Of a stretch of 64,000 bases of DNA, positions 1 to 42,609 are shown piece after piece. Under the pieces are notes generated by a model that saw nothing but the letters and a program-made list of their open reading frames with translations, did no database searches and was not told the DNA's origin. Where the stretch lies: positions 41,596,219 to 41,660,218 of the forward strand of contig OX424560.1 in the NCBI GenBank assembly GCA_949152475.1. Reading direction: 5' to 3'. The DNA comes from Terebella lapidaria (taxonomy: Eukaryota; Annelida; Polychaeta; Terebellida; Terebellidae). Position 1 is the stretch's first letter. Each line of letters opens with the position of its first letter. Position numbers and translations under genes: made by a program.

Positions 1-3000
1 GTGGTTCTCTCCATCTCCAGCATGTCCACGATCTGGTTTTTACATTCTAGGAGTACTTCCAGCGAGCCCGGGCCGTGAAGACCACCAAGAGCGCCGTGGT
101 TCTCTCCATTTCCAGCATGTCCATGATCTGGTTTTTACATTCTAGGAGTACTTCCAGCGAGCCCTGGCCGTGAAGACCACCAGGAGTGCCGTGGTTCTCT
201 CCATCTCCAGCATGTCCACGATCTGGTTTTTACATTCTAGGAGTACTTCCAGCGAGCCCGGGCCGTAAAGACCACCAGGAGCGCCGTGGTTCTCTCCATC
301 TCCAGCATGTCCATGATCTGGTTTTTACATTCTAGGAGTACTTCCATCGAGCCCTGGCCGTGAAGACCACCAGGAGCGCCGTGGTTCTCTCCATCTCCAG
401 CATGTCCCTGATATGGTTTTTACATTCTAGGAGTACTTCCAGCTAGCCCTGGCCGTGAAGACCACCAGGAGCGCCGTGGTTCTCTCCATCTCCAGCATGT
501 CCATGATATGGTTTTTACATTCTAGGAGTACTTCCAGCGAGCCCTGGCCGTGAAGACCACCAGGAGCGCCGTGGTTCTCTCCATCTCCAGCATGTCCATG
601 ATCTGGATTTTACATTCTAGGAGTACTTCCAGCGAGCCCTGGCCGTGAAGACCTCCAGGAGCGCCGTGGTTCTCTCCATCTCCAGCATGTCCATGATCTG
701 GTTTTTACATTCTAGGAGTACTTCCAGCGAGCCCTGGCCGTGAAGACCTCCAGGAGTGCCGTGGTTCTCTCCATCTCCAGCATGTCCATGATCTGGTTTT
801 TACATTCTAGGAGTACTTCCAGCGAGCCCTGGCCGTGAAGACCACCAGGAGCGCCGTGGTTTTCTCCATCTCCAGCATGTCCGTGATCTGGTTTTTACAT
901 TCTTGGAGTACTTCCAGCGAGCCCTGGCCGTGAAGACCACCAGGAGCGCCGTTGTTTTCTCCATCTCCAGCATGTCCATGATCTGGTTTTTACATTCTTG
1001 GAGTACTTCCAGCGAGCCCTGGCCGTGAAAACCTCCAGGAGCGCCGTGGTTCTCTCCATCTCCAGCATGTCCATGATCTGGTTTTTACATTCTAGGAGTA
1101 CTTCCATCGAGCCCTGGCCGTGAAGACCACCAGGAGCGCCGTGGTTCTCTCCATCTCCAGCATGTCCCTGATATGGTTTTTACATTCTAGGAGTACTTCC
1201 AGCTAGCCCTGGCCGTGAAGACCACCAGGAGCGCCGTGGTTCTCTCCATCTCCAGCATGTCCATGATATGGTTTTTACATTCTAGGAGTACTTCCAGCGA
1301 GCCCTGGCCGTGAAGACCACCAGGAGCGCCGTGGTTCTCTCCATCTCCAGCATGTCCATGATCTGGTTTTTACATTGTAGGAGTACTTCCAGCGAGCCCT
1401 GGCCGTGAAGACCACCAGGAGCGCCGTGGTTCTCTCCATCTCCAGCATGTCCATGATCTGGTTTTTACATTCTATGAGTACTTCCAGCGAGCCCTGGCCG
1501 TGAAGACCACCAGGAGCGCCGTGGTTCTCTCCATCTCCAGCATGTCCATGATCTGGTTTTTACATTGTAGGAGTACTTCCAGCGAGCCCTGGCCGTGAAG
1601 ACCACCAGGAGCGCCGTGGTTCTCTCCATCTCCAGCATGTCCATGATCTGGTTTTTACATTGTAGGAGTACTTTCAGCGAGCCCTGGCCGTGAAGACCTC
1701 CAGGATCGCCGTGGTTCTCTCCATCTCCAGCATGTCCATGATCTGGTTTTTACATTCTAGGAGTATTTCCAGCGAGCTCTGGCCGTGAAGACCACCAGGA
1801 GCGCTGTGGTTCTCTCCATCTCCAGCATGTCCATGATCTGGTTTTTACATTCTAGGAATATTTCCAGCGAATTCTGGGCGTGGAGACCACCAGGAGCGCC
1901 GTGGCTCTCTTCATCTCCAGCATGTCCATGATCTGGTTTTTACATTCTAGGAGTACTTCCAGCGAGCCCTGGCCGTGAGGACCACCAGGAGCGCCGTGGT
2001 TCTCTCCATCTCCAGCATGTCCATGATCTGGTTTTTACATTCTAGGAGTACTTCCAGTGAGCCCTGGCCGTGAAGACCACCAGGAGCGCCGTGGTTCTCT
2101 CCATCTCCAGCATGTCCATGATCTGGTTTTTACATTGTAGGAGTACTTTCAGCGAGCCCTGGCCGTGAAGACCTCCAGGATCGCCGTGGTTCTCTCCATC
2201 TCCAGCATGTCCATGATCTGGTTTTTACATTCTAGGAGTATTTCCAGCGAGCTCTGGCCGTGAAGACCACCAGGAGCGCTGTGGTTCTCTCCATCTCCAG
2301 CATGTCCATGATCTGGTTTTTACATTCTAGGAATATTTCCAGCGAATTCTGGCCGTGGAGACCACCAGGAGCGCCGTGGCTCTCTTCATCTCCAGCATGT
2401 CCATGATCTGGTTTTTACATTCTAGGAGTACTTCCAGCGAGCCCTGGCCGTGAGGACCACCAGGAGCGCCGTGGTTCTCTCCATCTCCAGCATGTCCATG
2501 ATCTGGTTTTTACATTCTAGGAGTACTTCCAGTGAGCCCTGGCCGTAAAGACCACCAGGAGCGCCGTGGTTCTCTCCATCTCCAGCATGTCCATGATCTG
2601 GTTTTTACATTCTAGGAGTACTACCAGCGAGCCCTGGCCGTGAAGACCACCAGGAGTGCCGTGGTTCTCTCCATCTCCAGCATGTCCATGATATGGTTTT
2701 TACATTCTAGGAGTACTTCCAGCGAGCCCTGGCCACAAAGACCTCCAGGAGCGCCGTGGTTCTCTCCATCTCCAGCATGTCCATGATCTGGTTTTTACAT
2801 TCTAGGAGTACTTTCAGTGAGCCCTGGCCGTGAAGACCTCCAGGAGCACCGTGGTTCTCTCCATCTCCAGCATGTCCATGATCTGGTTTTTACATTCTAG
2901 GAGTACTTCGAGCGAGCCCTGGCCGTGAAGACCACCACGAGCGCCGTGGTTCTCTCCATCTCCAGCATGTCCATGATCTGGTTTTTACATTCTAGGAGTA

Positions 3001-6000
3001 CTTTCAGTGAGCCCTGGCCGTGAAGACCTCCAGGAGCACCGTGGTTCTCTCCATCTCCAGCATGTCCATGATCTGCTTTTTACATTCTAGGAGTACTTCC
3101 AGCAAGCCCTGGCCGTGAAGACCTCCAGGAGCGCCGTGGTTCTCTCCATCTCCAGCATGTCCATGATCTGGTTTTTACATTCTAGGAGTACTTCCAGCGA
3201 GCCCTGGCCGTGAAGACCTCCAGGAGCGCCGTGGTTCTCTCCATCTCCAGCATGTCCATGATCTGGTTTTTACATTCTAGGAGTACTTTCAGCGAGCCCT
3301 GGCCGTGAAGACCTCCAGGAGCGCCGTGGTTCTCTCCATCTCCAGCATGTCCATGATCTGGTTTTTACATTCTAGGAGTACTTTCAGCGAGCCCTGGCCG
3401 TGAGGACCACCAGGAGCGCCGTGGTTCTCTCCATCTCCAGCATGTCCATGATCTGGTTTTTACATTCTAGGAGTACTTCTAGCGAGCCCTGACCGTGAAG
3501 ACCTCCAGGAGCGCCGTGGTTCTCTCCATCTCCAGCATGTCCATGATCTGGTTTTTACATTCTAGGAGAACTTCTAGCGAGCCCTGGCTCTGAAGACCAC
3601 CAGGAGTGCCGTGGTTCTCTCCATCTCCAGCATGTCCATGATCTGGTTTTTACATTCTAGGAGTACTTCCAGCGAGCCCTGGCCGTGAAGACCACCAGGA
3701 GTGCCGTGGTTCTCTCCATCTCCAGCATGTCCACGATCTGGTTTTTACATTCTAGGAGTACTTCCAGCGAGCCCGGGCCGTGAAGACCACCAGGAGCGCC
3801 GTGGTTCTCTCCATTTCCAGCATGTCCATGATCTGGTTTTTACATTCTAGGAGTACTTCCAGCGAGCCCTGGCCGTGAAGACCACCAGGAGTGCCGTGGT
3901 TCTCTCCCTCTCCAGCATGTCCACGATCTGGTTTTTACATTCTAGGAGTACTTCCAGCGAGCCCGGGCCGTAAAGACCACCAGGAGCGCCGTGGTTCTCT
4001 CCATCTCCAGCATGTCCATGATCTGGTTTTTACATTCTAGGAGTACTTCCAGCGAGCCCTGGCCGTGAAGACCACCAGGAGCGCTGTGGTTCTCTCCATC
4101 TCCAGCATGTCCATGATCTGGGTTTTACATTCTTGGAGTACTTCCAGCGAGCCCTGGCCGTGAAGACCTCCAGGAGCGCCGTGGTTCTCTCCATCTCCAG
4201 CATGTCCATGATCTGGATTTTACATTCTAGGAGTACTTCCAGCGAGCCCTGGCCGTGAAGACCTCCAGGAGCGCCGTGGTTCTCTCCATCTCCAGCATGT
4301 CCATGATCTGGTTTTTACATTCTAGGAGTACTTCCAGCGAGCCCTGGCCGTGAAGACCTCCAGGAGTGCCGTGGTTCTCTCCATCTCCAGCATGTCCATG
4401 ATCTGGTTTTTACATTCTAGGAGTACTTCCAGCGAGCCCTGGCCGTGAAGACCACCAGGAGCGCCGTGGTTTTCTCCATCTCCAGCATGTCCGTGATCTG
4501 GTTTTTACATTCTTGGAGTACTTCCAGCGAGCCCTGGCCGTGAAGACGACCAGGAGCGCCGTTGTTTTCTCCATCTCCAGCATGTCCATGATCTGGTTTT
4601 TACATTCTTGGAGTACTTCCAGCGAGCCCTGGCCGTGAAAACCTCCAGGAGCGCCGTGGTTCTCTCCATCTCCAGCATGTCCATGATCTGGTTTTTACAT
4701 TCTAGGAGTACTTCCATCGAGCCCTGGCCGTGAAGACCACCAGGAGCGCCGTGGTTCTCTCCATCTCCAGCATGTCCCTGATATGGTTTTTACATTCTAG
4801 GAGTACTTCCAGCTAGCCCTGGCCATGAAGACCACCAGGAGCGCCGTGGTTCTCTCCATCTCCAGCATGTCCATGATATGGTTTTTACATTCTAGGAGTA
4901 CTTCCAGCGAGCCCTGGCCGTGAAGACCACCAGGAGCGCCGTGGTTCTCTCCATCTCCAGCATGTCCATGATCTGGTTTTTACATTGTAGGAGTACTTCC
5001 AGCGAGCCCTGGCCGTGAAGACCACCAGGAGCGCCGTGGTTCTCTCCATCTCCAGCATGTCCATGATCTGGTTTTTACATTCTAGGAGTACTTCCAGCGA
5101 GCCCTGGCCGTGAAGACCACCAGGAGCGCCGTGGTTCTCTCCATCTCCAGCATGTCCATGATCTGGTTTTTACATTGTAGGAGTACTTCCAGCGAGCCCT
5201 GGCCGTGAAGACCACCTGGAGCGCCGTGGTTCTCTCCATCTCCAGCATGTCCATGATCTGGTTTTTACATTCTAGGAGTACTTCCAGCGAGCCCTGGCCG
5301 TGAAGACCACCAGGAGCGCCGTGGTTCTCTCCATCTCCAGCATGTCCATGATCTGGTTTTTACATTGTAAGAGTACTTCCAGCGAGCCCTGGCCGTGAAG
5401 ACCTCCAGGAGCGCCGTGGTTCTCTCCATGTCCAGCATGTCCATGATCTGGTTTTTACACTGTAGGAGTACTTCCAGCGAGCCCTGGCCGTGAAGACCAC
5501 CAGGAGCGCCGTGGTTCTCTCCATCTCCAGCATGTCCATGATCTGGTTTTTACATTCTAGGAGTACTTCCAGCGAGCCCTGGCCGTGAAGACCTCCAGGA
5601 GCGCCGTGGTTCTCTCCATCTCCAGCATGTCCATGATCTGGTTTTTACACTGTAGGAGTACTTCCAGCGAGCCCTGGCCGTGAAGACCACCAGGAGCGCC
5701 GTGGTTCTCTCCATCTCCAGCATGTCCATGATCTGGTTTTTACATTGTAGGAGTACTTCCAGCGAGCCCTGGCCGTGAAGACCACCAGGAGCGCCGTGGT
5801 TCTCTCCATCTCCAGCATGTCCATGATCTGGTTTTTACATTCTAGGAGTACTTCCAGCGAGCCCTGGCCGTGAAGACCACCAGGAGCGCCGTGGTTCTCT
5901 CCATCTCCAGCATGTCCATGATCCGGTTTTTACATTGTAGGAGTACTTCCAGCGAGCCCTGGCCGTGAAGACCACCAGGAGCGCCGTGGTTCTCTCCATC

Positions 6001-6880
6001 TCCAGCATGTCCATGATCTGGTTTTTACATTCTAGGAGTACTTCCAGCGAGCCCTGGCCGTGAAGACCACCAGGAGCGCCGTGGTTCTCTCCATCTCCAG
6101 CATGTCCATGATCTGGTTTTTACATTGTAGGAGTACTTCCAGCGAGCCCTGGCCGTGAAGACCTCCAGGAGCGCCGTGGTTCTCTCCATGTCCAGCATGT
6201 CCATGATCTGGTTTTTACACTGTAGGAGTACTTCCAGCGAGCCCTGGCCGTGAAGACCACCAGGAGCGCCGTGGTTCTCTCCATCTCCAGCATGTCCATG
6301 ATCTGGTTTTTACATTCTAGGAGTACTTCCAGCGAGCCCTGGCCGTGAAGACCTCCAGGAGCGCCGTGGTTCTCTCCATCTCCAGCATGTCCATGATCTG
6401 GTTTTTACACTGTAGGAGTACTTCCAGCGAGCCCTGGCCGTGAAGACCACCAGGAGCGGCGTGGTTCTCTCCATCTCCAGCATGTCTATGATCTGGTTTT
6501 TACATTCTAGGAGTACTTCCAGCGAGCCCTGGCCGTGAGGACCACCAGGAGCGCCGTGGTTCTCTCCATCTCCAGCATGTCCATGATCTGGTTTTTACAT
6601 TCTAGGAGTATTTCCAGCGAGCCCTGGCCGTAAAGACCACCAGGAGTGCCGTGGTTCTCTCCATCTCCAGCATGTCCATGATCTGGTTTTTACATTCTAG
6701 GAGTACTTCCAGCGAGCCCTGGCCGTGAAGACCTCCAGGAGCGCCGTGGTTCTCTCCATCTCCAGCATGTCCATGATCTGGTTTTTACATTCTAGGAGTA
6801 CTTCCAGCGAGCTCTGGCTGTGAAGACCACCAGGAGCGCCGTGGTTCTCTCCATCTCCAGTATGTTCATGATCTGGTTTT
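1..6880 (+). repeat. 95-bp satellite derived from an SLC5A7 intron/exon junction, at least 72 units
   Basis: Units of exactly 95 bp follow one another from the window edge. The word GTGGTTCTCTCC falls on positions 1, 96, 191, 1711, 2186, 3706, 5416, 6176 and 6841, all equal to 1+95n, so there is no net length drift over 72 units. Each unit contains a 3' splice site (TTTTTACATTCTAG then GAG) followed by 86 bases of coding sequence that recur, nearly unchanged, as the start of the real transporter exon at 6796. The unit therefore looks like 86 exon bases plus the last 9 or more intron bases, joined at a run of five T. Variants are shared in blocks, which shows duplication of groups of units. 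The array continues past the left edge of the window. It encodes no protein of its own. Confidence 0.95.
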
Positions 6881-8430
6881 TCTCCATCCCTCCCGTTCTG
6901 CTGGGAGCAGTGGCTGCCTCTGCAGGTGTGTACATGACATTTAGCACACTGTGTGGATGTTAAAGTAATCAGTCCTCGGACATTATCCAGGTAGGCAATT
7001 TACGAAACATATTTACTCAAGACTGATATTGCTGTAATCTAGTTGGCAAGCAGTTCTGAAAAAATTCCAACAGGTATGCAGTAGAAAAAGGTAGGCCTAC
7101 ACTGTCTGCCCCACACTCTCTGCCTTGATGACGCTAATATGGCTTCGGATGTAAATGTTTGGTCGAATGTTGTCTCAGTTCCAAAAGCTGTTCATTTTAA
7201 AATTAGGCTTTCTTGCGGCTTCGCCGTGATTTCACGTTGGAAATGGGTAGATAAATACACCAGGCCATGTGACAGATACTACACAAGAAGTAACACCACG
7301 ATTATGGTACAATATGCTGGTACATTTATGAGACATTCGGTGAAAATTTAGTAATGGGGTAGGTCCTAGGCAATGTACCTCTTCCTCTCGAGGCCATCGC
7401 ATACATTCACTTGTGTTTGTAGATTGGAACCAGACAGAGTACCTTGGCTTTGGGACGATCCCTGTCCCGGCCTGCGACTACCCGCTGGCGCTGCCGATGG
7501 TGATGCGGTTCCTGACTCCGACCCCGGTGGGGATTGTTGGCCTGGGGTCAGTGTCCGCCGCCGTCATGTCCTCCACCGACAGCGCCATCCTCGCCACCAG
7601 CTCCATGTTCGCGGTCAACATCTACACGCCGCTCCGTAACGCAGTCACTCAGTGCTGCTGCAAGAGGCTCAAGGTACGAGTTCTTCAGACAAAGCTCTTT
7701 CTGTGTGCAATGTTCTCTGGTATAAGTTACACATGGAGCTTGTTGTCTAGCGCTCAGCAGATTTGAAAACTAAAGGACAGACCGAGTAGGATGGTGACTT
7801 CAAACTTATAACAGTTATTGTGTTGTGTTACAGCTGACGTCGGACACGGAGGTTGTGTGGGTGATGAGAGGTACGATGATTGTAGTCGGAGCTGTGGCTA
7901 CCATCGTCGCCATCACGGCCACCTCCATCTACGGGTTGTTCGTGTTGCTAGGCGACCTCGTGTATGTGGTGCTGTTCCCACAGTTCGTGTGCGTGGTGCA
8001 TGTGTCATTCAGTAACTCGTACGGGTCGTTCGTGGGTTACTGGGCCAGCCTGCTGCTAAGACTGGCTGGCGGGGAGCCGTACCTGGGCCTGCCACCCCTC
8101 ATCAAGTACCCGTACTATGACGAGGTCCAGGGGGTCCAGCAGTTCCCGTTCCGTACAGTGACGATGCTAATCGGACTTCTACTGCTCGTCACTGTGTCTC
8201 TGCTCGCTCGGGAGTGCGCCAAACGATCTGCTACGTTCAGGAAACTCGACAGTTATCTTTTCGAAAGCTTTACAGCTAAAAGCGATGATAATGACAACGC
8301 AGACGCCAAATTCAGTAATAAGTCGATGAACACTGACGAAAAGGAACTGGATCCTTTACAACCCAAAGTAGCTGAGGACTCAAACAACCAACAGGAGACC
8401 AGCCAACTGATGCATGACAAATACCAATAG
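6796..8430 (+). CDS. SLC5A7: High-affinity choline transporter (SLC5A7/CHT1-like), last three exons
   Basis: This is a partial gene for a sodium- and chloride-coupled choline transporter of the SLC5 family. Such transporters sit in the plasma membrane of cholinergic neurons and bring in choline for acetylcholine synthesis. The exons are 6796-6925 (starts EYFQRALAVKT, ends phase 1), 7423-7673 and 7834-8430 (stop TAG), all with GT-AG introns. Family marks are DWNQT at the second exon start, GLGSVSAAVMSS.DSAIL, the WVMR segment and RLAGGEPYL. Several hydrophobic membrane segments are visible. The C-terminal tail (after about 8260) is hydrophilic and acidic and ends in DKYQ. Everything upstream of residue EYFQ lies left of the window, beyond the satellite. 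The exon at 6796 is itself the last copy of the 95-bp satellite unit, so this gene's acceptor is preceded by about 72 near-identical acceptors. The family call is firm; orthology to vertebrate CHT1 rather than a paralogue is likely but not proved. Confidence 0.88.
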
Positions 8431-9449: not shown

Positions 9450-10530
9450 ATGTTTAATATTTTAGATGTTAGCCAGGTCACTGGTTGAATTCAAGGTCAA
9501 GAGAATATTCAGCATATATAACATTAAGCATATATCATGTCCACAGTTGATTGCTAAGCTGTAAATTCAATAATCAGAGAGATATTAGCAATTTTGTGCT
9601 GTGGCCTTGAAAATGAAGGGGCAAAGGTCAAATTCAAGGTCATAAAAATATTCAATGTACATCATTTTCTATATCATGTCCACAATTGATTCCCAAGCCA
9701 TACAGTCAATAGAGGAGCGAGATATGAGTCAGTTTGTCTTTGGACCTTGAAAATGAGGTCAGAGGTCACGAGAATATTCAGCATATATCATTTCCTATAT
9801 GTCCACAATTGATTCCTAAGCTGTAAAGTCGATAATAAGTGAGATATTAGCCTGTTTGTCCTGTGACCTTGAAAATCAGGTCAAATGTCAAATTCAAGGT
9901 CATGACAAGAATCTGCATATGTCATTTCCTATATGTTAATAATTGATTGCTAAGCTGTAAAGTCGATAACAAGCGAGATATTAGCCATTTTGTCCTGTGA
10001 CCTTGAAAATGAGGTTGAAAGTCAAATTCAAGGTCATCAGAATATTGGGCATATATCATTTCCTATATGTCCACAATTGATTCCTAAGCTGTAGAGTCGA
10101 TAATAAGCGAGATATAAGCCATTTTGTGCTCTGACCTTGAAACTGAGGTCAGAGGTCAAATTCAAGGTCACGAGAATATTCAGCATATATTATTTCCTAT
10201 ATGTCCACAATTGATTCCTAAGCTGTAGAGTCGATAATAAGCGAGATATAAACATTTTGTGCTCTGACCTTGAAACTGAGGTCAGAGGTCAAATTCAAGG
10301 TCACGAGAATATTCAGCATATATCATTTCCTATATGTCCACAATTGATTCCTAAGCTGTAGAGTCGATAATAAGCGAGATATAAGCATTTTGTGCTCTGA
10401 CCTTGAAACTGAGGTCAGAGGTCAAATTCAAGGTCACGAGAATATTCAGCATATATCATTTCCTATATGTCCATAATTGATTCCTAGTCTCTAATCTCAA
10501 TATCAAGTGAGATATTAGGCATAATGTGTC
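9450..10530. repeat. ~133-bp tandem array containing AGGTCA half-sites
   Basis: About eight imperfect units are present. The later ones are spaced 133-134 bp (the TGACCTTGAA word at about 9864, 9998, 10132, 10265 and 10398). Each unit has TGACCTTGAA, then GAGGTCAGAGGTCAAATTC, then AAGGTCA, a block reading TCATTTCCTATATGTCCACA, and a block around AGTCGATAATAAGCGAGAT. Earlier units (9480-9860) are more diverged and vary in length. The array carries no coding capacity. Confidence 0.85.
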
Positions 10531-12706: not shown

Positions 12707-13099
12707 TAGTTACATAACTACGACCAGGTAGTCCGCCGAACAAGTCGGCTCTCAAGTCACCCGCCCTTATGAAAGTATTGTAACGGTTTTGGGGCGTACC
12801 CAAAGTTTCCCCTAGGTAATTCTATTAGTGTTTTGTGATATTATGGTTGAATAACCGTTTATTAATATGTATATGTGTTTAAAGGTTCATACGGTTCCGT
12901 ATTGTTAATGTTTAAAAGGTTTTCCGTCTCGGAACTTGGTATATTTGTGATGTTGGTAAAGCCGGAGACGGAGCCGGAACCGGAGACGGAACCGGAGACG
13001 GAGTCGGAACAATGGAGTACAAAAACGTAATGACGTTATTTCCGGAAGGTCATGTGATCAGCCTCGTTTTCGGTTTAAAAGGTGACGTGTCAGCCACTG

Positions 13100-13204
13100 A
13101 TTGGTTCTAGAGTGTTTTTAGAAATCCGGAAAATATCAGTGTTTTGGCTGACTATGACGTCACAATAGGTTGGTCACGTGACGTGGGTCTCAGGTTTATA
13201 AAAG
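13100..13204 (+). promoter_or_regulatory. LTR core promoter: CCAAT, CRE, E-box, TATA
   Basis: In order: an inverted CCAAT box (ATTGG, 13100-13104), a perfect CRE (TGACGTCA, 13155-13162), a palindromic E-box (TCACGTGA, 13174-13181) and a TATA box (TATAAAAG, 13197-13204). Transcription would start about 25-30 bp later, near 13228. The 3' LTR keeps the same boxes at 24233-24240, 24242-24249 and 24265-24272. Box order and spacing match the internal block at 20403-20472. Confidence 0.75.
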
Positions 13205-13345
13205 CCCCCGCTTCACAGCGGACGGCGGAGTTGGTGTCCTGACGTCGACCTGCGCAGACCCCTTCTCCCATAGCAGCGTACTCCCTTGTTCCGGATAGAG
13301 TCATCCAGATGATAGCAGTTAAGTCTTCCGACTGTGCACTTGGAA

Positions 13346-13351
13346 AATAAA
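13346..13351 (+). terminator. LTR polyadenylation signal AATAAA
   Basis: AATAAA is followed about 25 bp later by a GT-rich stretch (GAGTTGTTTTTCCGTGTTCG), the usual downstream element. The copy in the 3' LTR (24414-24419) would end the genomic transcript and defines an R region of roughly 140 bp. Confidence 0.65.
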
Positions 13352-14249
13352 CATGAAAACTTCAACCGAGTTGTTTTTCCGTGTTCGTTAGGGAACTGGA
13401 AGTTATAATAAAGTTAGTTCACCGGAAAAGACAGTAATACGGAGTAAAGGGAGATAAGACTACAGTCGGTTAAGACCAAGTTGTAACGACGTCTTAGGGT
13501 GATCCAAGAACCCAGATCACCAAAGAAGGAGACGGAGGTGGAATTCAACGGAGCAACTACGGAGGCGGTATCGGACGGAGCACTTGCAGAGGCGGTACCG
13601 GACGACGGAGTTGCAGAGGCAGTACCTGACGGAGCGGTTGCGGTAACCGGAAGTGAGAGAGCGGTTGCAGTATTCGGAAACGGCAACGTTCCTGGATTCT
13701 TTATTCCAGATGCAACGGAGCAACTACGGAGGCGGTATCGGACGGAGCAGTTGCAGAGGCGGTACCGGACGACGGAGTTGCAGAGGCAGTACCTGACGGA
13801 GCGGTTGCGGTAACCGGAAGTGAGAACACTTCCGAGATACTCCATTTCAGGTGCAGTCGCAGGTTGCGGTGAGGCGGAGCCAACCGGAGCAGTTTGCAGT
13901 GCGGCGGAACCTGGCAGAGCGGTTGCAGTATTCGGAAACGGCAACGTTCCCGGATTCTTTATTCCAGGTGCAGTCGCAGTTTGCAGTAAGGCGGAAAACG
14001 ACGGAGCTGTTGCAGTAAAGCGGTATCCCGACGGTGCAGTTGCAGATTAGCAGTCGGACAACGGTTAAGAGGTCCATTCCAGACCACGCTACCAACCTTA
14101 GAGACTTCTAGCCGGAGTTCAACCGTACAGCAGTAGCAGTTTCCCGGAGTTTTACCGTTTCAGCTCCGGTTAAACAACAACTCACCCACCTCCCTAGAAA
14201 ACCGGTTTATCAAGACGTCACAGAAGGGTGCAAACCCGTTACAACTTTT

Positions 14250-14267
14250 TGGTGGCAGCGGTGGGAT
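14250..14267 (+). other. Primer-binding site, complementary to tRNA-Leu 3' end
   Basis: TGGTGGCAGCGGTGGGAT begins six bases after the LTR. It is the reverse complement of an acceptor end ATCCCACCGCTGCCACCA, which I recognise as the 3' end of animal tRNA-Leu (AAG/UAG type) including the added CCA. All 18 bases pair. Minus-strand DNA synthesis would be primed here. Confidence 0.75.
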
Positions 14268-14277
14268 CATCTGCAGT

Positions 14278-15414
14278 ATGAATACTAGACGGGGCAAATT
14301 GGCGGAACAGCAGCTGAAGACAGCCGTGTCGGACACGGAGCAGCCTGTAGGAGCAGTAGGAGCTGAGCCGTTGCAGATGCCGGTTGCGGAAAAGGAAGCA
14401 GTTCGTCCTGCCGAGCGAAAGCTGTTGCAGCCGGAAATGCAGAAAGCAGTTGCAGAAGAGCCCCTTCGTGTTCCTCAAGGAGTACAGCCTGCAGAGCAGT
14501 TAGCAGAGGCAGAAATTAACTTTCCGGACCAGACTGGCGATCGGGAACCGGATGCGGAACCGGAAGGCGGAGAGAATTTAGTCGACAACCTGACCAGATT
14601 ATTGGCGACCCAAATGGAGGTGTTTCAGCAGCACCTGGCAGTAACCGGAAAGCAGCAGCAGGCAGAAGCAGTACAACAAGCAGCACCAAGGGCAGGAGTA
14701 GCCAGATTAATGACGTACGACGGAACTGATCCGTGGCCGGAGTATGAGGCTCACCTCCTTGAATACGCTCGGTACTACCGTTGGACAGCAGAGGAAAAGG
14801 CGCTGAACTTATGTGTCAGTTTGAGGGGTAACGCCCGCAGCATACTACTGGATCTGTCCGCGGAGCAGAGACGCAGCTTTGATACGGTTGTGGCGGCATT
14901 AAAACAGCAGTTTTGTCCGGGGGAGAAAACATTTGTTTTTCAGGCGGAATTGCAGACACGGAAATTGCAGCCGGAGGAGGAGCTGTCCGAGCTGGCCAGA
15001 GACATACGGAGCAAGACGCGGCTAGCTTACCCAAAAGCAGATCCGGCAACAACAGAAGTGCTCATGAAGATGCATTTCTGCAACAGTCTGACTAACCGAG
15101 ATATGCGGTTGTCGGTATTGAAAAGCCACCTGGAAACGCTGTCGCAGGCCCTGGCTTTCGCTACCGAGTATGAGAGTATTATGAAGACGGACAACAGCAG
15201 ACCAGCGGAGCGACACCGGACGAGGCAGCTGAACACGGAGCCGGAGTGGAGCCAGCAGGTGAACGAATTGCGGAAGCAAGCCGAGCAGACTCAGCAGCAG
15301 TTGGCGGATCTGATGACTCAGGTCAAGGAAGCGGTTAGCCGGCAGCAGCAGCAGCGCAGTTCCCGAGCGGATTTAGAATGCTTCATCTGTGGCCGGAAAG
15401 GGCATTTTGCCTGA
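14278..15414 (+). CDS. gag: Gag polyprotein (capsid and interrupted nucleocapsid)
   Basis: This is the structural protein of the retrotransposon particle, 378 codons from ATG. Residues 1-110 are charged and Glu/Ala/Gln-rich. About residues 140-300 form the retrotransposon Gag capsid region (marks: TYDGTDPWPEYEAHL, LRGNAR, VVAALKQQF, LARDIRSK). A Gln-rich helical stretch follows. The C-terminus begins a CCHC zinc knuckle with C368, C371 and H376. A TGA at codon 379 interrupts the knuckle, and the final Cys of the CX2CX4HX4C pattern is the second codon after the stop. The change fits deamination of a CGA codon, or possible readthrough. After the TGA the same frame stays open to a TAG at 15553 through a poly-Gln region. 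Confidence 0.85.
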   Translation: MNTRRGKLAEQQLKTAVSDTEQPVGAVGAEPLQMPVAEKEAVRPAERKLLQPEMQKAVAEEPLRVPQGVQPAEQLAEAEINFPDQTGDREPDAEPEGGENLVDNLTRLLATQMEVFQQHLAVTGKQQQAEAVQQAAPRAGVARLMTYDGTDPWPEYEAHLLEYARYYRWTAEEKALNLCVSLRGNARSILLDLSAEQRRSFDTVVAALKQQFCPGEKTFVFQAELQTRKLQPEEELSELARDIRSKTRLAYPKADPATTEVLMKMHFCNSLTNRDMRLSVLKSHLETLSQALAFATEYESIMKTDNSRPAERHRTRQLNTEPEWSQQVNELRKQAEQTQQQLADLMTQVKEAVSRQQQQRSSRADLECFICGRKGHFA

Positions 15415-15617
15415 GACTGTAGGCAGCCGAAGCAGCAGCAGCAGCAGCGTCAACCACAACAGCAGCAGTCGCCGCGACAACAGCAGCAGCAGCAGCCGCA
15501 GCAGCAACAACAACTGCAGCAGCCACGACAGCAGCAGCAGCAGCCGGAAAACTAGAGCGGGTCGCGGAAAAGGGGAAATCCGGGACCCGGAAGAGAGGAC
15601 ACCCCCATAACCGGCAG

Positions 15618-17954
15618 GTGGTTCACGGACCCGGTCCCAGGGGCGAGGTGGGCATGTGTGTGACAGCCAGAGTATGCGGAGAGCCAGTAACGCTGATAAT
15701 CGACACCGGCAGCACTGTCACAATGCTCAACCTACAAACCTGGGAACGGATCCGGAAGCCCGGTATGAAGCTGAAGCGGTCGCCGATTCGTCTTTCAATG
15801 GTTGACGGAAGTAACATACGGACGCATGGCCGGAAAGAACTCCCACTCAACATCGCAGGAGTAGCTGAGACCGTGACGTTTGAGATTGCAGACTGTGAAG
15901 ACGAAGGAATACTGGGAATGGATTTCATCCGTTCCCGGATATCCGGCATAAATTTCGACCGAATGACCATGCAGATGGGCAGCCAGGAGGTGTTCCTCAC
16001 CATGTTCGAGCAGACCAGGGAGCCGTTTCCGATCAACGCTGTAGCAGATTACCAAATTCCGCCGGAAACGGAACAGCTGATAATAGGACAAGCAGAGAAC
16101 GTCTGGGAAGCAGAAGGAGTACTAGAAATGCCACAGGAGCCTACTGAGAAAAGACCTTGGCTGATCGGGAGAACTTTATCCCGGATAAGGCAAGGAACAG
16201 TCCCGGTTCGAGTGATCAATGTGTTGGCGGAGCCGGTTATCATCAAGAAAGGAGCGCAGTTGGCGACCATGACCACCTTAGCAGCCGGTTGCAGTGTTGT
16301 GCCGTTGGCGGAGCGGAGCAGGAAGGTGCAGATTTCCACGGAGTCGGAGGCCGGGCGGAATTGGAGCGGGTACGAGAAGCTGCGGCAGTTAGCAGAGCAG
16401 ACCCAGGATGCAGTGCCGAGTCATTTCCGCGAGAGAGTAACCGACCTCCTATTTCGGAATAAGCCGACCTTCAGTAATGATGCCGGAGAACTGGGGCAGA
16501 CCAACGAGGTACAACATCAGATAAACACGGGCAGTCACCGGCCGATTAAGCAGCCAACCAGACGAATTCCGCCAGACAAGAGAGAGCTGGTGAGCAGTCT
16601 GATTCAGGAGATGAAAGACAAGAACGTCATTGAAGAAAGTAGCAGTCTGTGGGCTTCCCCGATTGTCCTCGTGAAGAAAAAGGATGGGACCACCCGGTTC
16701 TGTGTCGATTACCGGCGGTTAAATGCAGTCACGGAGAAAGATGCTTATCCGTTGCCGAGAATAGACGACACCATAGCAGCCTGTGCAGACGCCAAATGGT
16801 TCTCCACTCTCGACCTGACCAGTGGCTACTGGCAGGTCGGGATGGATGAAGACGCCCGGAAAAAGTCGGCCTTCTGTGTTCCTGGCGGCCTTTACCAGTT
16901 CAAAGTCATGAGTTTCGGCTTGTGCAATGCTCCGGGTACGTTCGAGCGGTTGATGGAGAAGGTGCTAGGCGGATTGTCCTGGAAGACCTGCCTCATATAT
17001 CTGGACGACATCATAGTCTACAGCAAGACCCTGGAGGATCACATCCGTGATCTTCAGGAGGTGTTCAGCAAGCTGAGAGAGGCAGACCTAAAAGTCAAAC
17101 CGTCAAAATGCAAGTTCTTCCAGCCGGAGGTGTCTTTCCTAGGTCACATAGTCGGCAGAGACGGTATCCGCACCGACCCGGCAAAAACGGAGGCAGTATG
17201 GAAGTGGCGGACACCCACCAACCTGACGGAGCTGCGCAGTTTTCTGGGACTTTGCTCCTATTACCGGAAGTTCGTGCCGAAGTTCTCCGAGATTGCAGCG
17301 CCGCTGAATCACTTGACGGAAAAAGGGGTGCAGTTCCGGTGGCAGACGGAGCAAGAGCAGGCATTTGCAGAGCTGAAGAACCGCCTAGTATCGGCACCGA
17401 TACTCGGGTACCCTAGGGAGCAAGGCCGATATATCCTGGACACGGACGCCAGTGACACCGGGCTGGGAGCAGTACTGTCACAGAAGCAGGGCAACCAGGA
17501 GCGAGTGATAACCTACTTGAGCCGCAGCCTAACCAAAGAAGAACGGAGATACTGTGTCACCCGGAAGGAGCTCCTGGCGGTTGTGTTTGCGGTACAGAAG
17601 AATAAGCAGTACTTGCTGGGACGACACTTCCTTCTTCGCACAGATCATGGCAGCCTTACCTGGCTTATGAATTTCAAGGAGCCCCAGGGGCAGGTAGCCC
17701 GGTGGATTGAGCTCCTGAGTGAGTTTCATTTCGACATCGAACATCGTCCGGGGCGAATCCATAATAACGTGGATGCCTTGTCCAGATCCCCATGCAGCCA
17801 ATGCGGAAAAATCGACTGGAAACAAGCCAAGATAGACGCCTGGAACTACGGAGAAAGGATCCGGCAGACACGAAGTGAAGAAACTCCTCAGCCCAAGCCA
17901 AGGAAGGGGGGACGCCGGAAGCGGTCACGGAGATCGGGCGAGAAGCAGAAATGA
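15618..17954 (+). CDS. pol: Pol part 1: aspartic protease, reverse transcriptase, RNase H
   Basis: The frame is open from 15423 and its first plausible domain residues begin near 15618, so the true N-terminus is uncertain. Counting from 15618, the protease active site DTGS is at about residue 29. RT spans about residues 330-510, with WASPIVLVKKKDG, the LDLTSGYWQV motif and the catalytic YLDD near residues 461-464. RNase H spans about 600-720, with DTDASDTGLGAV, RKELLAVV and TDHGSL. The frame is -1 relative to gag and overlaps gag's extended frame over a CAG-rich stretch at 15423-15553, where slippage could join them. It ends at TGA 17952-17954, before the integrase, unlike the usual single PR-RT-RH-IN frame. 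ATG of the next small frame overlaps this stop (ATGA). Confidence 0.92.
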   Translation: MVHGPGPRGEVGMCVTARVCGEPVTLIIDTGSTVTMLNLQTWERIRKPGMKLKRSPIRLSMVDGSNIRTHGRKELPLNIAGVAETVTFEIADCEDEGILGMDFIRSRISGINFDRMTMQMGSQEVFLTMFEQTREPFPINAVADYQIPPETEQLIIGQAENVWEAEGVLEMPQEPTEKRPWLIGRTLSRIRQGTVPVRVINVLAEPVIIKKGAQLATMTTLAAGCSVVPLAERSRKVQISTESEAGRNWSGYEKLRQLAEQTQDAVPSHFRERVTDLLFRNKPTFSNDAGELGQTNEVQHQINTGSHRPIKQPTRRIPPDKRELVSSLIQEMKDKNVIEESSSLWASPIVLVKKKDGTTRFCVDYRRLNAVTEKDAYPLPRIDDTIAACADAKWFSTLDLTSGYWQVGMDEDARKKSAFCVPGGLYQFKVMSFGLCNAPGTFERLMEKVLGGLSWKTCLIYLDDIIVYSKTLEDHIRDLQEVFSKLREADLKVKPSKCKFFQPEVSFLGHIVGRDGIRTDPAKTEAVWKWRTPTNLTELRSFLGLCSYYRKFVPKFSEIAAPLNHLTEKGVQFRWQTEQEQAFAELKNRLVSAPILGYPREQGRYILDTDASDTGLGAVLSQKQGNQERVITYLSRSLTKEERRYCVTRKELLAVVFAVQKNKQYLLGRHFLLRTDHGSLTWLMNFKEPQGQVARWIELLSEFHFDIEHRPGRIHNNVDALSRSPCSQCGKIDWKQAKIDAWNYGERIRQTRSEETPQPKPRKGGRRKRSRRSGEKQK

Positions 17955-18211
17955 CGGAGGAAGCAGTCCCAAGGAAGGCGGTTGCAGTAGCAGAGAAAGC
18001 AGCGTCCCGGAAGCCGGTTGCGGTGACGGAGGAAGCAGCGTCCCGGAAGCCGGTTGCGGTTGCAGTAGCGGAGAAAGAAGCGTCCCGGAAGCCGGTTGCG
18101 GTTGCGGTGACGGAGAAAGCAGCGTCCCGGAAGCCGGTTGCGGTTGCGGTAACGGAGAAGGCAGTTCCAGGAAAAGCGGATGCGGTTGCAGAGCAGATTA
18201 GGCATGGCTGA
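17951..18211 (+). CDS. Small repeat-coded frame between RNase H and integrase
   Basis: These 86 codons are built from five near-repeats of about 36-45 bp (KAASRKPVAVAV-type repeats). The ATG overlaps the RT frame's stop as ATGA, and the end overlaps the internal integrase ATG at 18204 (ATGGCTGA). The arrangement would allow termination-reinitiation from RT frame to small frame to integrase. Alternatively the repeat expanded and broke a once continuous pol frame. I do not recognise a domain. The tandem structure and the Lys/Val/Ala bias suggest a low-complexity linker. Confidence 0.4.
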   Translation: MTEEAVPRKAVAVAEKAASRKPVAVTEEAASRKPVAVAVAEKEASRKPVAVAVTEKAASRKPVAVAVTEKAVPGKADAVAEQIRHG

Positions 18212-19655
18212 GAATGCGGACCAGGATACTGTGTTGGGGCAGAAATATCGACCAGATGATTTGCGGAGAATGCAGCAAGCAGAACCTTGGTACCCTCTGG
18301 TGACGTCGCTGATCGACGGGGGCGGTACAGCTGGCAGTGCAGACTTTTCCAGCATGAGCAGCGAGGAGAAAGTGCTGTACGGGATGCGGAAGACCTTGCT
18401 GAAAGTCGACGGAGTAGTCTACCGGAAATGGAAAACGGCAGAAGGAACCAGCCGAATGCAGTTAATAACCCCGAAGGAGCTGAGACAGGAGATTTTCCGT
18501 CTGGCCCATCAGAGCCGGACGGGAGGACACCTCGGAAGCAGAAGGATGGCGGCTAGCATTCGGAGGCGGTATTTCTGGCCGGCTATGATGCGGGACATAA
18601 AGCAGTGGGTGCTGAGCTGTGACAAATGTGCGTCAAGAAGTATGCAGAACCTGAGACGATCTCCGATGCAGAAATACCGGGTTGGAGCGCCCATGGAGAG
18701 GGTGGCTATGGACGTGATGGGTCCATTACCTAAATCCACCCGGGGGAACCGGTACATCTTAGTAATCGGTGATTACTTCACCAAGTGGGTAGAGGCTTAC
18801 CCGATGCCGAATCAGGAAGCGGTGACGGTTGCGGACATATTCGTCAACCAGTTTGCAGTGCGGTACGGTATCCCGATGGAGATACACACCGACCAAGGCA
18901 GAAATTTCGAGTCCGACTTGCTGAGAAATGTTTGCAGAATCCTGGGGATTCACAAGACACGGACAACCGCTTTCCGACCTCAGTCGGACGGTTTCATTGA
19001 GCGATTCAACCGGACGCTGCAGCAAATCCTGAGCCTGTACGTAAGCGAGCGGCAGACCAACTGGGATCAGCTAGTACCGTTGGCGATGGCAGCTTACCGG
19101 AGTACCCTGCAAGAGACAACCGGGCAGAGCCCCAATTTTCTGATGCTGGGCAGAGAAGTCAACACTCCGGTAGAGTTACTGATTGGCAGGCCGCCGGGCG
19201 AATCGACAGCAGAAGTAACAGAGTATGGCAGTCAGCTCCGGGAGCGACTAGAAGCAGTATACAAGGCGGTTCGAGCGAAATCTGGCAGAGAGATGGAACG
19301 GCAGAAGAAGCTGTACGACCGGAGGAAGGTCGACAATCAGTTCCAGCCAGGAGACCGAGTGTGGATGGCGGTCAAAACACGGAAGAAGGGCAAGGCACCC
19401 AAGTTGCAGAGGAAGTGGAGCGGTCCAAAGCTAGTGCTGAGCAGATTTACCGACGTGACCTACGAGATTGTAGAGAGTGAAACTCGGCAGAAGGTGGTTC
19501 ACTTCGATTTGCTGAAACCGTATAATGGTGTCAAGCATCCGAGATGGATGAAGCGGAGAATGGCGGATTGCTGGAGGCAGACGGAGCCGCCGAAGCAGAG
19601 TAGCGTTCCGGAGACGGAACAGACGGTCTCTGAGTCGGATACGGACTCGGAGTAA
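18180..19655 (+). CDS. pol: Pol part 2: integrase
   Basis: The integrase inserts the cDNA into host chromosomes. It is in the same reading frame as the RT part but separated from it by several stops. ATGs at 18180 and 18204 are both possible starts. An N-terminal zinc domain (HQSRTGGHLG, then CDKC) is followed by the catalytic core with D178, D238 and E274 (MDVMGPLP, HTDQGRNF, FIERFNR), a DD(35)E spacing. A C-terminal GPY/F-like segment is present (WSGPKLVL...TYEIV). No chromodomain is seen. The tail is acidic and Ser/Thr-rich. Confidence 0.92.
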   Translation: MRLQSRLGMAENADQDTVLGQKYRPDDLRRMQQAEPWYPLVTSLIDGGGTAGSADFSSMSSEEKVLYGMRKTLLKVDGVVYRKWKTAEGTSRMQLITPKELRQEIFRLAHQSRTGGHLGSRRMAASIRRRYFWPAMMRDIKQWVLSCDKCASRSMQNLRRSPMQKYRVGAPMERVAMDVMGPLPKSTRGNRYILVIGDYFTKWVEAYPMPNQEAVTVADIFVNQFAVRYGIPMEIHTDQGRNFESDLLRNVCRILGIHKTRTTAFRPQSDGFIERFNRTLQQILSLYVSERQTNWDQLVPLAMAAYRSTLQETTGQSPNFLMLGREVNTPVELLIGRPPGESTAEVTEYGSQLRERLEAVYKAVRAKSGREMERQKKLYDRRKVDNQFQPGDRVWMAVKTRKKGKAPKLQRKWSGPKLVLSRFTDVTYEIVESETRQKVVHFDLLKPYNGVKHPRWMKRRMADCWRQTEPPKQSSVPETEQTVSESDTDSE

Positions 19656-20402
19656 AGCGGCAAAAGACGCAGAAATATGAGAAGACGGAGTGAGCTGTAG
19701 AGCGGGAGAAGGAGATAGCTGAGACCCTGGTAAAACGTTGAGTTCCGGCAGAGAGCGACCGCAAGAAGTCGGAGCAGTGAGCAAGTGCTGGTTCCGGAAA
19801 CAGGGCGGAGAAAGGAAGCAGAGCGGAAAGCGGTGCAGAGACCGGATAGAGACATCCTAGAGGTTCTGACTGGGTTGAGCGCATAGTCAACCAGTCCAGG
19901 GTAGCGGCCAGGGGTCCGGAAGAACCTGGGTTAGCGGTCTAGTATCTCCAGAGAAGCAGCTACACGTCTTCCGTATTCAGAGAATTAAGACGGAAAAGTT
20001 TTCCGGCTGTAGACATCCAACCGGAGTTTCCACTTAGCAGAGACAGTAAACCGACTGCAGATTGACAGAAACGGAGAAACATCACCCCAGATAGGAAGGC
20101 GCCTCCTTCTGGACAGAATGTATGCAGTTTCCAGTGTCGACAAGCAGTAATACCAGTGAGCAGATATGCAGCTGACGAAGCAGTACAGATGGCGGAAACG
20201 CCCAACTTGCAGTCAGATGTTCGTCTGGCAGGCAGATTCAACTGGCTGAGACTCTATTCAACCCTCCTGATGGCAGAGATACTTCAAAATTGCAGATACT
20301 TCGCTCGGAGAAGCAGTTGAAAGGGAGCCGGAAAAACCCGGAGAATCCGGTTGAGCCGGAGACGGACACCTCTCGATTAACGGTTGAGTTTTTGCATAAT
20401 TG
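19656..20402. other. Non-coding spacer inside the retrotransposon
   Basis: No credible frame occurs between the integrase stop and the first internal promoter block. The sequence keeps the purine-rich, GGAG/GCAG-rich style of the element. There is no envelope-like ORF (no signal peptide or membrane span) here. Confidence 0.6.
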
Positions 20403-20472
20403 TGACGTCACTCCTGAGGCAGCCAATCAGCGTGGAGCTTTTCAAGTCACGTGAGCAGAAAGGGTATAAAAG
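20403..20472 (+). promoter_or_regulatory. Internal promoter block 1: CRE, CCAAT, E-box, TATA
   Basis: TGACGTCA (20403-20410), CCAAT (20423-20427), TCACGTGA (20447-20454) and TATAAAAG (20465-20472) occur within 70 bp. The E-box to TATA spacing resembles that of the LTR promoter. The start of transcription would be near 20500, giving a 5' UTR of about 200 bp before the zinc-finger ORF at 20709. The call rests on motif content only. Confidence 0.6.
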
Positions 20473-20708
20473 GGCCTTGAAATCGGGCTCTGAGAGCAGT
20501 TGAAGAGCAGACCTCGAGCTGTGCACATCGCTGTTAAAGTTTGGCGGAATCGAATCAAGTCCAGCATTTTCCGGCAGCGGCAGATTTTGCAGTGAAAAAC
20601 GACTAAGTGTTTCCCGGAAGACCACCAGTCAGGAGAAGCGGTGCAGCAGAAGCGGTGCAGTAAAAGCGGTGCAGTAGATCGACAACTTCAGTTTCCCGGC
20701 TTTCCGGA

Positions 20709-21374
20709 ATGGCCTACTCGGCGTTCCTTGGAAGACAAGATCGCGGCCGGAGCAGAGATTGGGCAAGCCCTCAGCCCCTGGATTATAGCCGGCTGTGTAA
20801 GCGGTGTGACCGGATGTTCGAGAGTGAGACGGACAGGAGACGGCATGTGTGCCCAACCCAGAGGTATCATTGCTGTTTGTGTGCCTTCTACGGCAACCGG
20901 GCGAACGACCTTAGGCGGCATCTCCGGGAGATGCACGGCTGGAAGTACCCTTCCGGGAACCGTCCTCCTCAGGACGAGGCAACCCTCAACCATGTGGGAA
21001 CCTTCGATTCGGCCTGGCGGGGAACAGCAACGCAGTCCCGGCGGAAGCGGTTCCGGAGATTCTGCACACAGTCTCCCAGGGAGAAACCAGTTCCGGAGAC
21101 TTATGCGGACCAGCTTCCGTTCGGACCTGACTGGGATGCCGGGGCAGCCGCCCCCATCGGACAACCGGAGCAGTTAGATCTACCGGAATGGGCCCCGGAC
21201 CCGCAGGGCTGTCTCCGGGCCGCCGAAGAAGACCAAGCGGAGGATTGGGAGGCGGAAATCCGTGCCAGAGAATACCGGCCTCCATCTCCCACCTCGGAAC
21301 CAGAGACGGATGAGTCGGAGTATGTGACGGCAGATGAGGAATCCTGGACGGAAGCGAAGGCAGTGTGGCAGTAG
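20709..21374 (+). CDS. Accessory ORF 3: two-finger zinc protein
   Basis: 221 codons from ATG, downstream of the internal promoter block. The N-terminal third has a first finger-like motif with C30, C33, H46 and C48 (CX2CX12HXC) and a classical C2H2 finger with C55, C58, H71 and H76 (CX2CX12HX4H). The rest is acidic, with Pro-, Trp- and Glu-rich stretches (for example EPETDESEYVTADEESW), reminiscent of an activation region. No membrane span or enzyme motif is seen. It lies after integrase, where retroviruses place env or regulatory genes. A role in nucleic-acid binding or regulation of the element is an inference. The pairing with ORF 4 suggests the two came from one duplicated cassette. Confidence 0.7.
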   Translation: MAYSAFLGRQDRGRSRDWASPQPLDYSRLCKRCDRMFESETDRRRHVCPTQRYHCCLCAFYGNRANDLRRHLREMHGWKYPSGNRPPQDEATLNHVGTFDSAWRGTATQSRRKRFRRFCTQSPREKPVPETYADQLPFGPDWDAGAAAPIGQPEQLDLPEWAPDPQGCLRAAEEDQAEDWEAEIRAREYRPPSPTSEPETDESEYVTADEESWTEAKAVWQ

Positions 21375-21499
21375 CGGAGGCAGATGGCAGTGTGGCAGTA
21401 GCAGAGGCAGATGGCAGTGTAGCGGTAGACGGAGGCGGTTGGCAGTTTGGCGGAGACGGAGAAGAAAGAGCGGTGGCAGATAGCAGCAACAACAACACG

Positions 21500-21529
<30 letters not shown>
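21500..21529 (+). repeat. Run of 30 A between the two accessory cassettes
   Basis: Thirty consecutive A lie about 125 bp after the ORF 3 stop and 48 bp before the second promoter block. No AATAAA precedes the run closely. It may be a slippage-expanded tract or the poly(A) remnant of a captured transcript. Confidence 0.9.
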
Positions 21530-21531
<2 letters not shown>

Positions 21532-21576
21532 ATTTATCCAAGAAGACCACCAGGAGGAGTTGCAGTTGCTGAGCAG

Positions 21577-21628
21577 CCAATCATCAAGCAGATAAGCCAG
21601 TCACGTGACTTCCAGAGACTATAAAAGG
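21577..21628 (+). promoter_or_regulatory. Internal promoter block 2: CCAAT, E-box, TATA
   Basis: CCAAT (21577-21581), TCACGTGA (21601-21608) and TATAAAAGG (21620-21628) precede the second zinc-finger ORF by about 80 bp. The order and the exact TCACGTGA and TATAAAAG words match block 1 and the LTR; the CRE is absent here. Motif evidence only. Confidence 0.58.
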
Positions 21629-21704
21629 GGCAGATAGCTGTTACCGGATGCAGAAGGCAGTTTGCTGTAGCTGAGTCAACATCGACACTAAGCAGAGAAT
21701 CAGA

Positions 21705-23504: not shown

Positions 23505-23831
23505 CCATTGGTACCAAACACCATTCCACCTCGTCCGCCGTCGGGGAGCAGTTCGCGCCGTGATACTGGTGGGCAGTAGTCGTCGCAAGTCGTCGCAAGT
23601 CAAGTCGGCGCAAGGAGAAGAAAGAAGAACCATTTCCCGGATTCTAGTATAATTAAGAGTTAAAAAGTGGGAAACGGAACAAGCAAGATATCCGGGTACA
23701 GTGACGGTAAACTAGTTAAGAGATACCAGTACCCGGATCACGGAAACAAGTTGTGTTTGATTTTACGGACAGTTTAACGGTTGACAATTTGTATATATGT
23801 GATATTGATCTGTTCGGGACGAACAGAGTCT

Positions 23832-23844
23832 AAGGAAGGGGGAG
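23832..23844 (+). other. Polypurine tract
   Basis: AAGGAAGGGGGAG abuts the start of the 3' LTR (TGTAACGG at 23845). This is the expected plus-strand primer of an LTR retrotransposon. Confidence 0.85.
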
Positions 23845-25150
23845 TGTAACGGTTTTGGGGGCGTACCCAAAAGTTTCCCCTAGGTAATTCTATTAGTGTT
23901 TTGTGATATTATGGTTGAATAACCGTTTATTAAAATGTATATGTGTTTAAAGGTTCATACGGTTCCGTATTGTTAATGTTTAAAAGGTTTTCCGTCTCGG
24001 AACTTGGTATATTTGTGATGTTGGTAAAGCCGGAGACGGAGCCGGAACCGGAGACGGAACCGGAGACGGAGTCGGAACAATGGAGTACAAAAACGTAATG
24101 ACGTTATTTCCGGAAGGTCATGTGATCAGCCTCGTTTTCGGTTTAAAAGGTGACGTGTCAGCCACTGATTGGTTCTAGAGTGTTTTTAGAAATCCGGAAA
24201 ATATCAGTGTTTTGGCGGACTATGACGTCACAATAGGTTGGTCACGTGACGTGGGTCTCAGGTCTATAAAAGCCCCCGCTTCACAGCGGACGGCGGAGTT
24301 GGTGTCCTGACGTCGACCTGTGCAGACCCCTTCTCCCATAGCAGCGTACTCCCTTGTTCCGGATAGAGTCATCCAGATGATAGCAGTTAAGTCTTCCGAC
24401 TGTGCACTTGGAAAATAAACATGAAAACTTCAACCGAGTTGTTTTTCCGTGTTCGTTAGGGAACTGGAAGTTATGTTAAAGTTAGTTCACCGGAAAAGAC
24501 AGTAATACGGAGTAAAGGGAGATAAGACTACAGTCGGTTAAGACCAAGTTGTAACGACGTCTTAGGGTGATCCAAGAACCCAGATCACCAAAGAAGGAGA
24601 CGGAGACGGAGGTGGAATTCAACGGAGCAACTACGGAGGCGGTATCGGACGGAGCAGTTGCAGAGGCGGTACCGGACGACGGAGTTGCAGAGGCAGTACC
24701 TGACGGAGCGGTTGCGGTAACCGGAAGTGAGAACACTTCCGAGATACTCCATTTCAGGTGCAGTCGCAGGTTGCGGTGAGGCGGAGCCAACCGGAGCAGT
24801 TTGCAGTGCGGCGGAACCTGGCAGAGCGGTTGCAGTATTCGGAAACGGCAACGTTCCCGGATTCTTTATTCCAGGTGCAGTCGCAGTTTGCAGTAAGGCG
24901 GAAAACGACGGAGCTGTTGCAGTAAAGCGGTATCCCGACGGTGCAGTTGCAGATTAGCAGTCGGACAACGGTTAAGAGGTCCATTCCAGACCACGCTACC
25001 AACCTTAGAGACTTCTAGCCGGAGTTCAACCGTACAGCAGTAGCAGTTTCCCGGAGTTTTACCGTTTCAGCTCCGGTTAAACAACAACTCACCCACCTCC
25101 CTAGAAAACCGGTTTATCAAGACGTCACAGAAGGGTGCAAACCCGTTACA
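23845..25150 (+). repeat. 3' LTR (1306 bp)
   Basis: It matches the 5' LTR along its whole length with roughly ten single-base differences or indels (for example CAGGTCTATAAAAG against CAGGTTTATAAAAG). It lacks the 167-bp U5 duplication and has an extra GAGACG near 24603. It contains the CRE (24233-24240), E-box (24242-24249), TATA (24265-24272) and AATAAA (24414-24419). Confidence 0.93.
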
Positions 25151-31838: not shown

Positions 31839-34516
<2,678 letters not shown>

Positions 34517-42060: not shown

Positions 42061-42609
42061 GAAAGGGAACTAACCACACACAGTAACAGGGCGGGCAAAA
42101 TAAGCAAACCTGAGACTGCGCTGAAAAAGAACCCTAAGAGGACTACGAATATATAAACTACAGTATACGACAAAATATATACAGTAGAAAATTAACGTAG
42201 AACTATTGATAGATGTAAACAACAAGTACACTATCAAGTACGACGGATGGACGATAATAGGGTGAACTGGCTATACAAATCGCTGACGATCTAGCAAGTA
42301 ACAAACTATCGACCAATACTTATCCAAATAGACACAAAACGATGTCTATGAACGTGGCAGGTGAAATTCCGTAAGAATATATCGCAAAAGTCTAGTTTGC
42401 AGACTAAATTCTACGAATTCACCGGGAACCAAAATCCAAAGCTGCCAAGCAAAAATGGCGGTGGACAGAAAAGTGAAGCTTCTGCGCAGCTGCGCGCGCA
42501 TATGCGCGGCGGTTTTGGCGGCAAAAGGAGCGCTCGAGTCATGCAGGCAGACGATCGTGCCTTGCTTTCAGTACGCGAATTTCTATCCAGAACGATCCAA
42601 AGGATCGAA
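42061..42609 (-). other. 5' leader of the DIRS element
   Basis: The non-coding lead of the element between its right inverted end and gag. The part at 42465-42609 is the region copied into the hairpin element at 35428-35585 and includes the near-palindrome GCGCGCATATGCGCG. Promoter boxes are not obvious. Confidence 0.55.

Follow-up and report, generated by a model that had tools for sequence, protein, structure and literature searches.

A choline-transporter-like gene within the analyzed window (a stretch of 64,000 nucleotides) carries, directly in front of one of its exons, a tandem array of at least 71 copies of its own intron-exon boundary. The array fits a known kind, the "mirages" of amphioxus genes, and is extreme in its number of units, which is about ten times that of the mirages compared here by count. 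We consider it likely that the array is a very long, neutral mirage-type minisatellite, which is removed together with the intron and needs no function. Several observations point to this reading, namely that the unit repeats the gene's own boundary, that the array closes with the real exon, that the variation among units is neutral, and that blocks of units have been duplicated. Expression and correct splicing of the gene are presumed as part of this reading.

Structure of the array and the adjoining gene

Tandem Repeats Finder reported a period of 95 bp with 72.4 copies across positions 1-6881 (95% matches, 0% indels, score 12586), and these figures exclude a chance origin of the 95-bp periodicity. 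When placed in register with the exon border, the array comprises 71 full units (51-6795) and 50 bp of a further unit (1-50). Since it continues past the left edge of the window, 71 units is a minimum. The original prediction of about 72 units becomes, in register, 71 full units plus the 50-bp remainder as a lower bound. The features of the array and the gene are the following.

1..6795, plus strand: tandem array with a 95-bp unit (86 bases matching the exon and 9 intron bases), from the repeat finder and the register with the exon
51..335 and 526..1570, plus strand: 14 units that recur 39 and 38 units later, at 3756..4040 and 4136..5180; mark of multi-unit duplication
6782..6795, plus strand: authentic 3' splice site TTTTTACATTCTAG, identical to the consensus of the array copies
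6796..6925, plus strand: authentic exon, 43 codons and 1 base (EYFQRALAV...AASA), with its donor GT at 6926; transporter homology from residue 2
6877..6881, plus strand: TTTTT in the exon, the point where exon and unit diverge (units TTTTTACATTCTAG, exon TTTTTCTCC)
7423..7673, plus strand: next SLC5A7-like exon, from open frame and homology
7834..8430, plus strand: last SLC5A7-like exon, with stop codon, from open frame and homology

Each unit opens with GAGTACTTCC...ATCTGGTTTTT, which corresponds to the initial 86 bases of the exon, and closes with nine non-matching bases, ACATTCTAG, which end in AG. This composition bears out the prediction that the satellite arose from the gene's own splice acceptor. 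The 86 exon bases per unit were also given correctly, and the number of other bases is nine rather than 14, because 86 plus 14 counts the TTTTT twice. As predicted, the last array unit passes straight into the intact exon at 6796-6925 and its donor. Beyond the point of divergence, the real exon reads ATCTGGTTTTTCTCC, whereas the array units read ATCTGGTTTTTACATTCTAG. The TTTTT at 6877-6881 is a possible microhomology of the founding duplication, with the original intron end lying upstream of the window.

A coding repeat was rejected because the 95-bp period is not divisible by three and stops number 74, 73, and 68 in the three frames of 1-6925. A dispersed satellite was likewise rejected for the window, where matches to the unit from 6961 on are only 12 to 15 bases long.

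The exons at 6796-6925, 7423-7673, and 7834-8430 join in frame to give 325 open codons with GT/AG borders. The joined product matches the solved high affinity choline transporter 1 (SLC5A7; E = 6.8e-60) and the Pfam SSF family (25.3 bits; cut-off, 22.8). The transporter alignment begins at residue 2, which makes the exon border at GAG credible; the upstream exon lies outside the window. Among the best 120 of 148 matches, choline transporters of many animals are found at identities of up to 52%, none of them near-identical. The top-scoring match in this set is Branchiostoma belcheri (49%), with molluscs and echinoderms close behind, and the named matches include Branchiostoma at 46 to 49% and molluscs and sea urchins at similar identity. 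In a tree of 35 of the 120 listed matches, the transporter clusters with five gastropod proteins (support 96/90) and has a long branch. Had the window come from a well-annotated Branchiostoma species, a near-identical protein would be expected, so the host may be another lancelet or another animal.

Sequence change among the units

The 71 full units share a mean pairwise identity of 95.6% and comprise 44 different sequences, with 56 distinct variants at 48 sites. For the variant counts, the first 81 unit columns were taken as exonic and the last 14 as intronic. Silent changes make up 14 of the 49 distinct exonic variants, compared to a fraction of 0.294 (14.4 of 49) expected if change of this spectrum were free of constraint, and the exonic variants are spread over codon positions 1, 2, and 3 as 17, 15, and 17. 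In addition, six of the 71 units have an in-frame stop within their own exon part. Variability is not reduced in the last 14 columns relative to the first 81 (0.028 versus 0.023). Of the 71 units, 64 retain the acceptor AG (0.90), which ranks below the median dinucleotide (0.97) and is the 15th least conserved of 94; there is no sign of selection to keep the acceptors. Hence, the units show no sign of being kept as exons or as acceptors, and they change like unconstrained DNA. This neutral pattern lends no support to silencing or decoy regulation by the array, both of which had been put forward in the original prediction.

Within its first 86 bases, the real exon departs from the unit consensus at four positions. 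The sole protein-changing difference is a Phe in the real exon and a Ser in the unit consensus; in five aligned relatives, this residue is Phe (two), Ile (three), or Ser (none). Homogenisation between the array and the real exon was rejected, as none of the 71 units comes nearer to the exon than four differences. The similarity of units to the exon rises only weakly with position (Spearman -0.28, p 0.02, with units that are not independent). The boundary unit, i.e., the real exon, thus stands outside the homogenised part, as it does in mirages.

Blocks of units recur at a distance within the array. At a lag of 38 units, 12 consecutive units (431-1570) differ on average at 0.75 sites, with five differences in the first of them; the longest comparable run in 40 shuffles of the unit order was 5. 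Shorter recurrence steps of five and eight units are also present. These block duplications suggest unequal exchange or slippage and, in this one sequence, point to past changes in the length of the array.

Splice-site choice, known relatives, and alternative readings

The acceptor positions number 72 with the real one included, and AG is present at 65 of them, 64 of which lie upstream. The predicted succession of some 72 near-identical 3' splice sites therefore stands for 64 of the 71 upstream units, the AG being absent in the other seven. Apart from one that lies too close to the window edge, the upstream acceptors (70 of 71) have surroundings, from -80 to +80, that are 91 to 97% identical to those of the real acceptor. 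Because these surroundings are nearly equal, local strength can hardly choose the acceptor. The choice of the last acceptor would then have to come from downstream, which makes exon definition the simplest account, with the only good donor lying 130 bases after this acceptor. By a crude match count over seven positions, the donor at 6926 scores 6, the best GT of the consensus unit scores 3, and the best GT of any unit scores 4. Within the reach of this score, the intervals between the acceptors are free of donors, as had been claimed. The unit contains a single match to yTnAy, eight bases before the G of the acceptor. A branch point eight bases from the acceptor G is too close, and this match was rejected as a candidate.

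Joined in phase 0 and read to the end of the gene, every one of the 64 upstream acceptors with AG runs into a premature stop, and none reads through. This agrees with the prediction that any earlier acceptor would go off frame and meet a stop. The stop follows after 40 codons for 51 of the 64 and after 3 to 56 codons for the other 13 (36 codons, n = 3; 56, n = 3; 4, n = 4; 3, n = 2; 38, n = 1). The truncation would occur with any number of units, divisible by three or not.

We propose that the array would have started with a tandem duplication of the intron-exon boundary, perhaps via the TTTTT common to the intron end and the exon. Unequal exchange or replication slippage may then have brought the array to its present 71 or more copies. 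The real exon, held by selection on the protein, would have remained outside the homogenised part. During splicing, the exon would be defined backwards from the donor at 6926 to the nearest acceptor, and the array would leave with the intron. The array is probably drifting passively. If the gene is expressed, the locus constitutes a natural experiment in splice-site choice, with 64 or more AG-bearing upstream acceptors in almost the same surroundings as the real one, which alone has a good donor at a normal exon distance.

The suggestion that a satellite of this origin had not been described is not supported. "Mirages" are minisatellite-like duplications of intron-exon boundaries in amphioxus genes, including Adh3, the globins BflGb6 and BflGb9, troponin C, and PGBD5 (PMC3087553, PMC3902484; the latter cites the Adh and troponin C cases). 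The mirages described there are all from amphioxus. For the globin mirage, the authors' RT-PCR suggests regular splicing, and the terminal units lie outside the homogenised cluster (PMC3087553). In PGBD5, 60- and 108-bp repeats over splice sites have 2 or 7 and 3 or 6 units, respectively, depending on the assembly version (PMC3902484).

The array shares with these mirages its minisatellite-like tandem repeats and a unit that spans the boundary and adjoins the authentic one, the upstream exon lying outside the window. BflGb6 also combines an intron 3' end with the 5' part of an exon in AG-bearing units and has terminal units outside the homogenisation (PMC3087553). The present array differs in its choline-transporter-like host gene, in its unit length (95 bp, compared to 150 to 160 bp in BflGb6, 157 bp in BflGb9, 60 and 108 bp in PGBD5, and 10 to 72 bp in Adh3), and in its number of units (at least 71, in contrast to 3 to 6 in BflGb6 and 2 to 7 in PGBD5; PMC3087553, PMC3902484). 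If the host is a lancelet, the array extends the copy number of mirages about tenfold over the counts of 2 to 7; if it is not, mirages reach beyond lancelets. As the mirages compared by count have 2 to 7 units, an array of at least 71 could behave differently.

Mirages have also been used in a model of intron gain, in which an internal unit could turn into an exon (PMC3087553). The tandem duplication of splice-site-bearing segments is common to that model and the present array. However, none of the present units offers a good donor match, and therefore no new exon is at hand. Among other accounts of amphioxus genes, a VCBP3 study describes whole or partial exon copies in introns, some with splice sites (PMC2632668), and passages of a huntingtin study mention tandem repeats and assembly errors and do not mention boundary repeats (PMC2206037). 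At the thresholds set, our literature search returned no paper linking a choline transporter to a minisatellite, to satellite DNA, or to amphioxus, none on satellite DNA arrays derived from an exon or splice acceptor, and none under the exact phrase "mirage minisatellites."

A donor-side counterpart is the variable number tandem repeat (VNTR) in intron 18 of human ABCA7, which begins with the donor of exon 18 and reaches 10,678 bp (PMC5954066). There too, a tandem repeat lies directly at an exon border, its unit bears a splice signal, and retention of one unit shifts the frame. It differs in its position on the donor side and in its 25-bp intronic unit, whereas the present array is on the acceptor side and made mostly of exon sequence. 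Exon 19 skipping and reduced expression are associated with VNTR length, whereas one-unit retention is independent of it (PMC5954066). The ABCA7 repeat is a counterpoint to a harmless boundary array and raises the alternative that the array acts as a length-dependent brake. Use of an upstream acceptor would lead to a stop and destruction of the transcript, or the exon would be skipped, so that longer alleles would yield less transporter. The premature stops from all 64 AG-bearing upstream acceptors and the near-equality of the surroundings in 70 of 71 are consistent with such a brake. On the other hand, the acceptors show no sign of selection, with AG lost in seven of 71 and conserved less than the median dinucleotide, and the published mirages are reported not to disturb regular splicing (PMC3087553, PMC3902484). 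In addition, the use of the ABCA7 repeat-unit splice site was unrelated to VNTR length, which went with exon skipping alone (PMC5954066). Taken together, we regard a brake as unlikely.

A bolder version, to which we give a small chance, sees the array as an unstable rheostat that depends on allele length and perhaps varies somatically. Dozens of acceptors would compete with the real one, the transcript would be lost whenever one of them is used, and length would set the amount of transporter. If true, the 64 or more AG-bearing competitors would make the locus a natural and very strong test of exon definition versus first-AG scanning.

The original prediction also allowed for a gene copy already out of use, in which the array would grow unopposed. 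Such an array would endanger a working exon, and the transporter is without a close relative (best identity, 52% among the best 120 of 148 matches) and sits on a long branch in the tree. However, this explanation is disfavoured by the three visible exons, which together keep an open frame of 325 codons and have GT/AG borders, exons further upstream lying outside the window. Moreover, the real exon has retained its Phe, in contrast to the Ser of the unit consensus, which none of the five relatives has. We therefore hold disuse of the gene or allele to be improbable. An assembly error, by which a few true units were expanded or the length was misjudged, is very improbable: a mirage locus has been misassembled before (PMC3087553, Additional file 4 legend), but 44 different sequences among 71 units without indels are unlike a looped assembly, and the block repeated 38 units later bears its own changes. 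The length of the array may nevertheless be wrong.

Other repeats and genes in the window

About 1 kb downstream of the transporter gene, a 134-bp tandem array (9476-10522) is rich in RAGGTCA, which we take to represent nuclear-receptor-like half sites. Of the 36 matches to this motif in the window, 21 lie in 9493-10436; 19.3 are expected window-wide, and 36 was reached in none of 100 shuffles.

Two regions contain pieces of mobile elements. Reverse transcriptase and integrase pieces occur in 12960-24952, where the repeats at 12960-14045 and 24028-24952 have consensus units in common, as long terminal repeats would; this is presumably a Gypsy-like retrotransposon region. On the minus strand, 36993-42069 carries a reverse transcriptase piece and a tyrosine-recombinase-like piece (24.8 bits, below the Pfam cut-off of 27.1), and we assume it to be a DIRS-like element.

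A retinol-dehydrogenase-like gene lies on the plus strand at 28156-29790 (Pfam adh_short). No Branchiostoma appears among the names of its listed matches (best 120 of 178, many without a name). The gene at 31840-34522 on the minus strand, presumably secernin-like, includes a 73-residue piece without a Pfam match.

A second long array, at 51619-53614, consists of 48 copies of a 43-bp unit and occupies the greater part of an intron in an ATP-citrate-lyase-like gene on the minus strand, with exons between about 50300 and 57000. The two exons flanking the array match human ATP-citrate synthase, and we take the remaining exons of this gene to be ATP-citrate-lyase-like as well. The array begins after the first eight bases of the intron, the donor GT being at 53622-53621. 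No exon sequence was seen in the 43-bp unit, which contains an acceptor-like TTCTATTGTAG on the gene strand.
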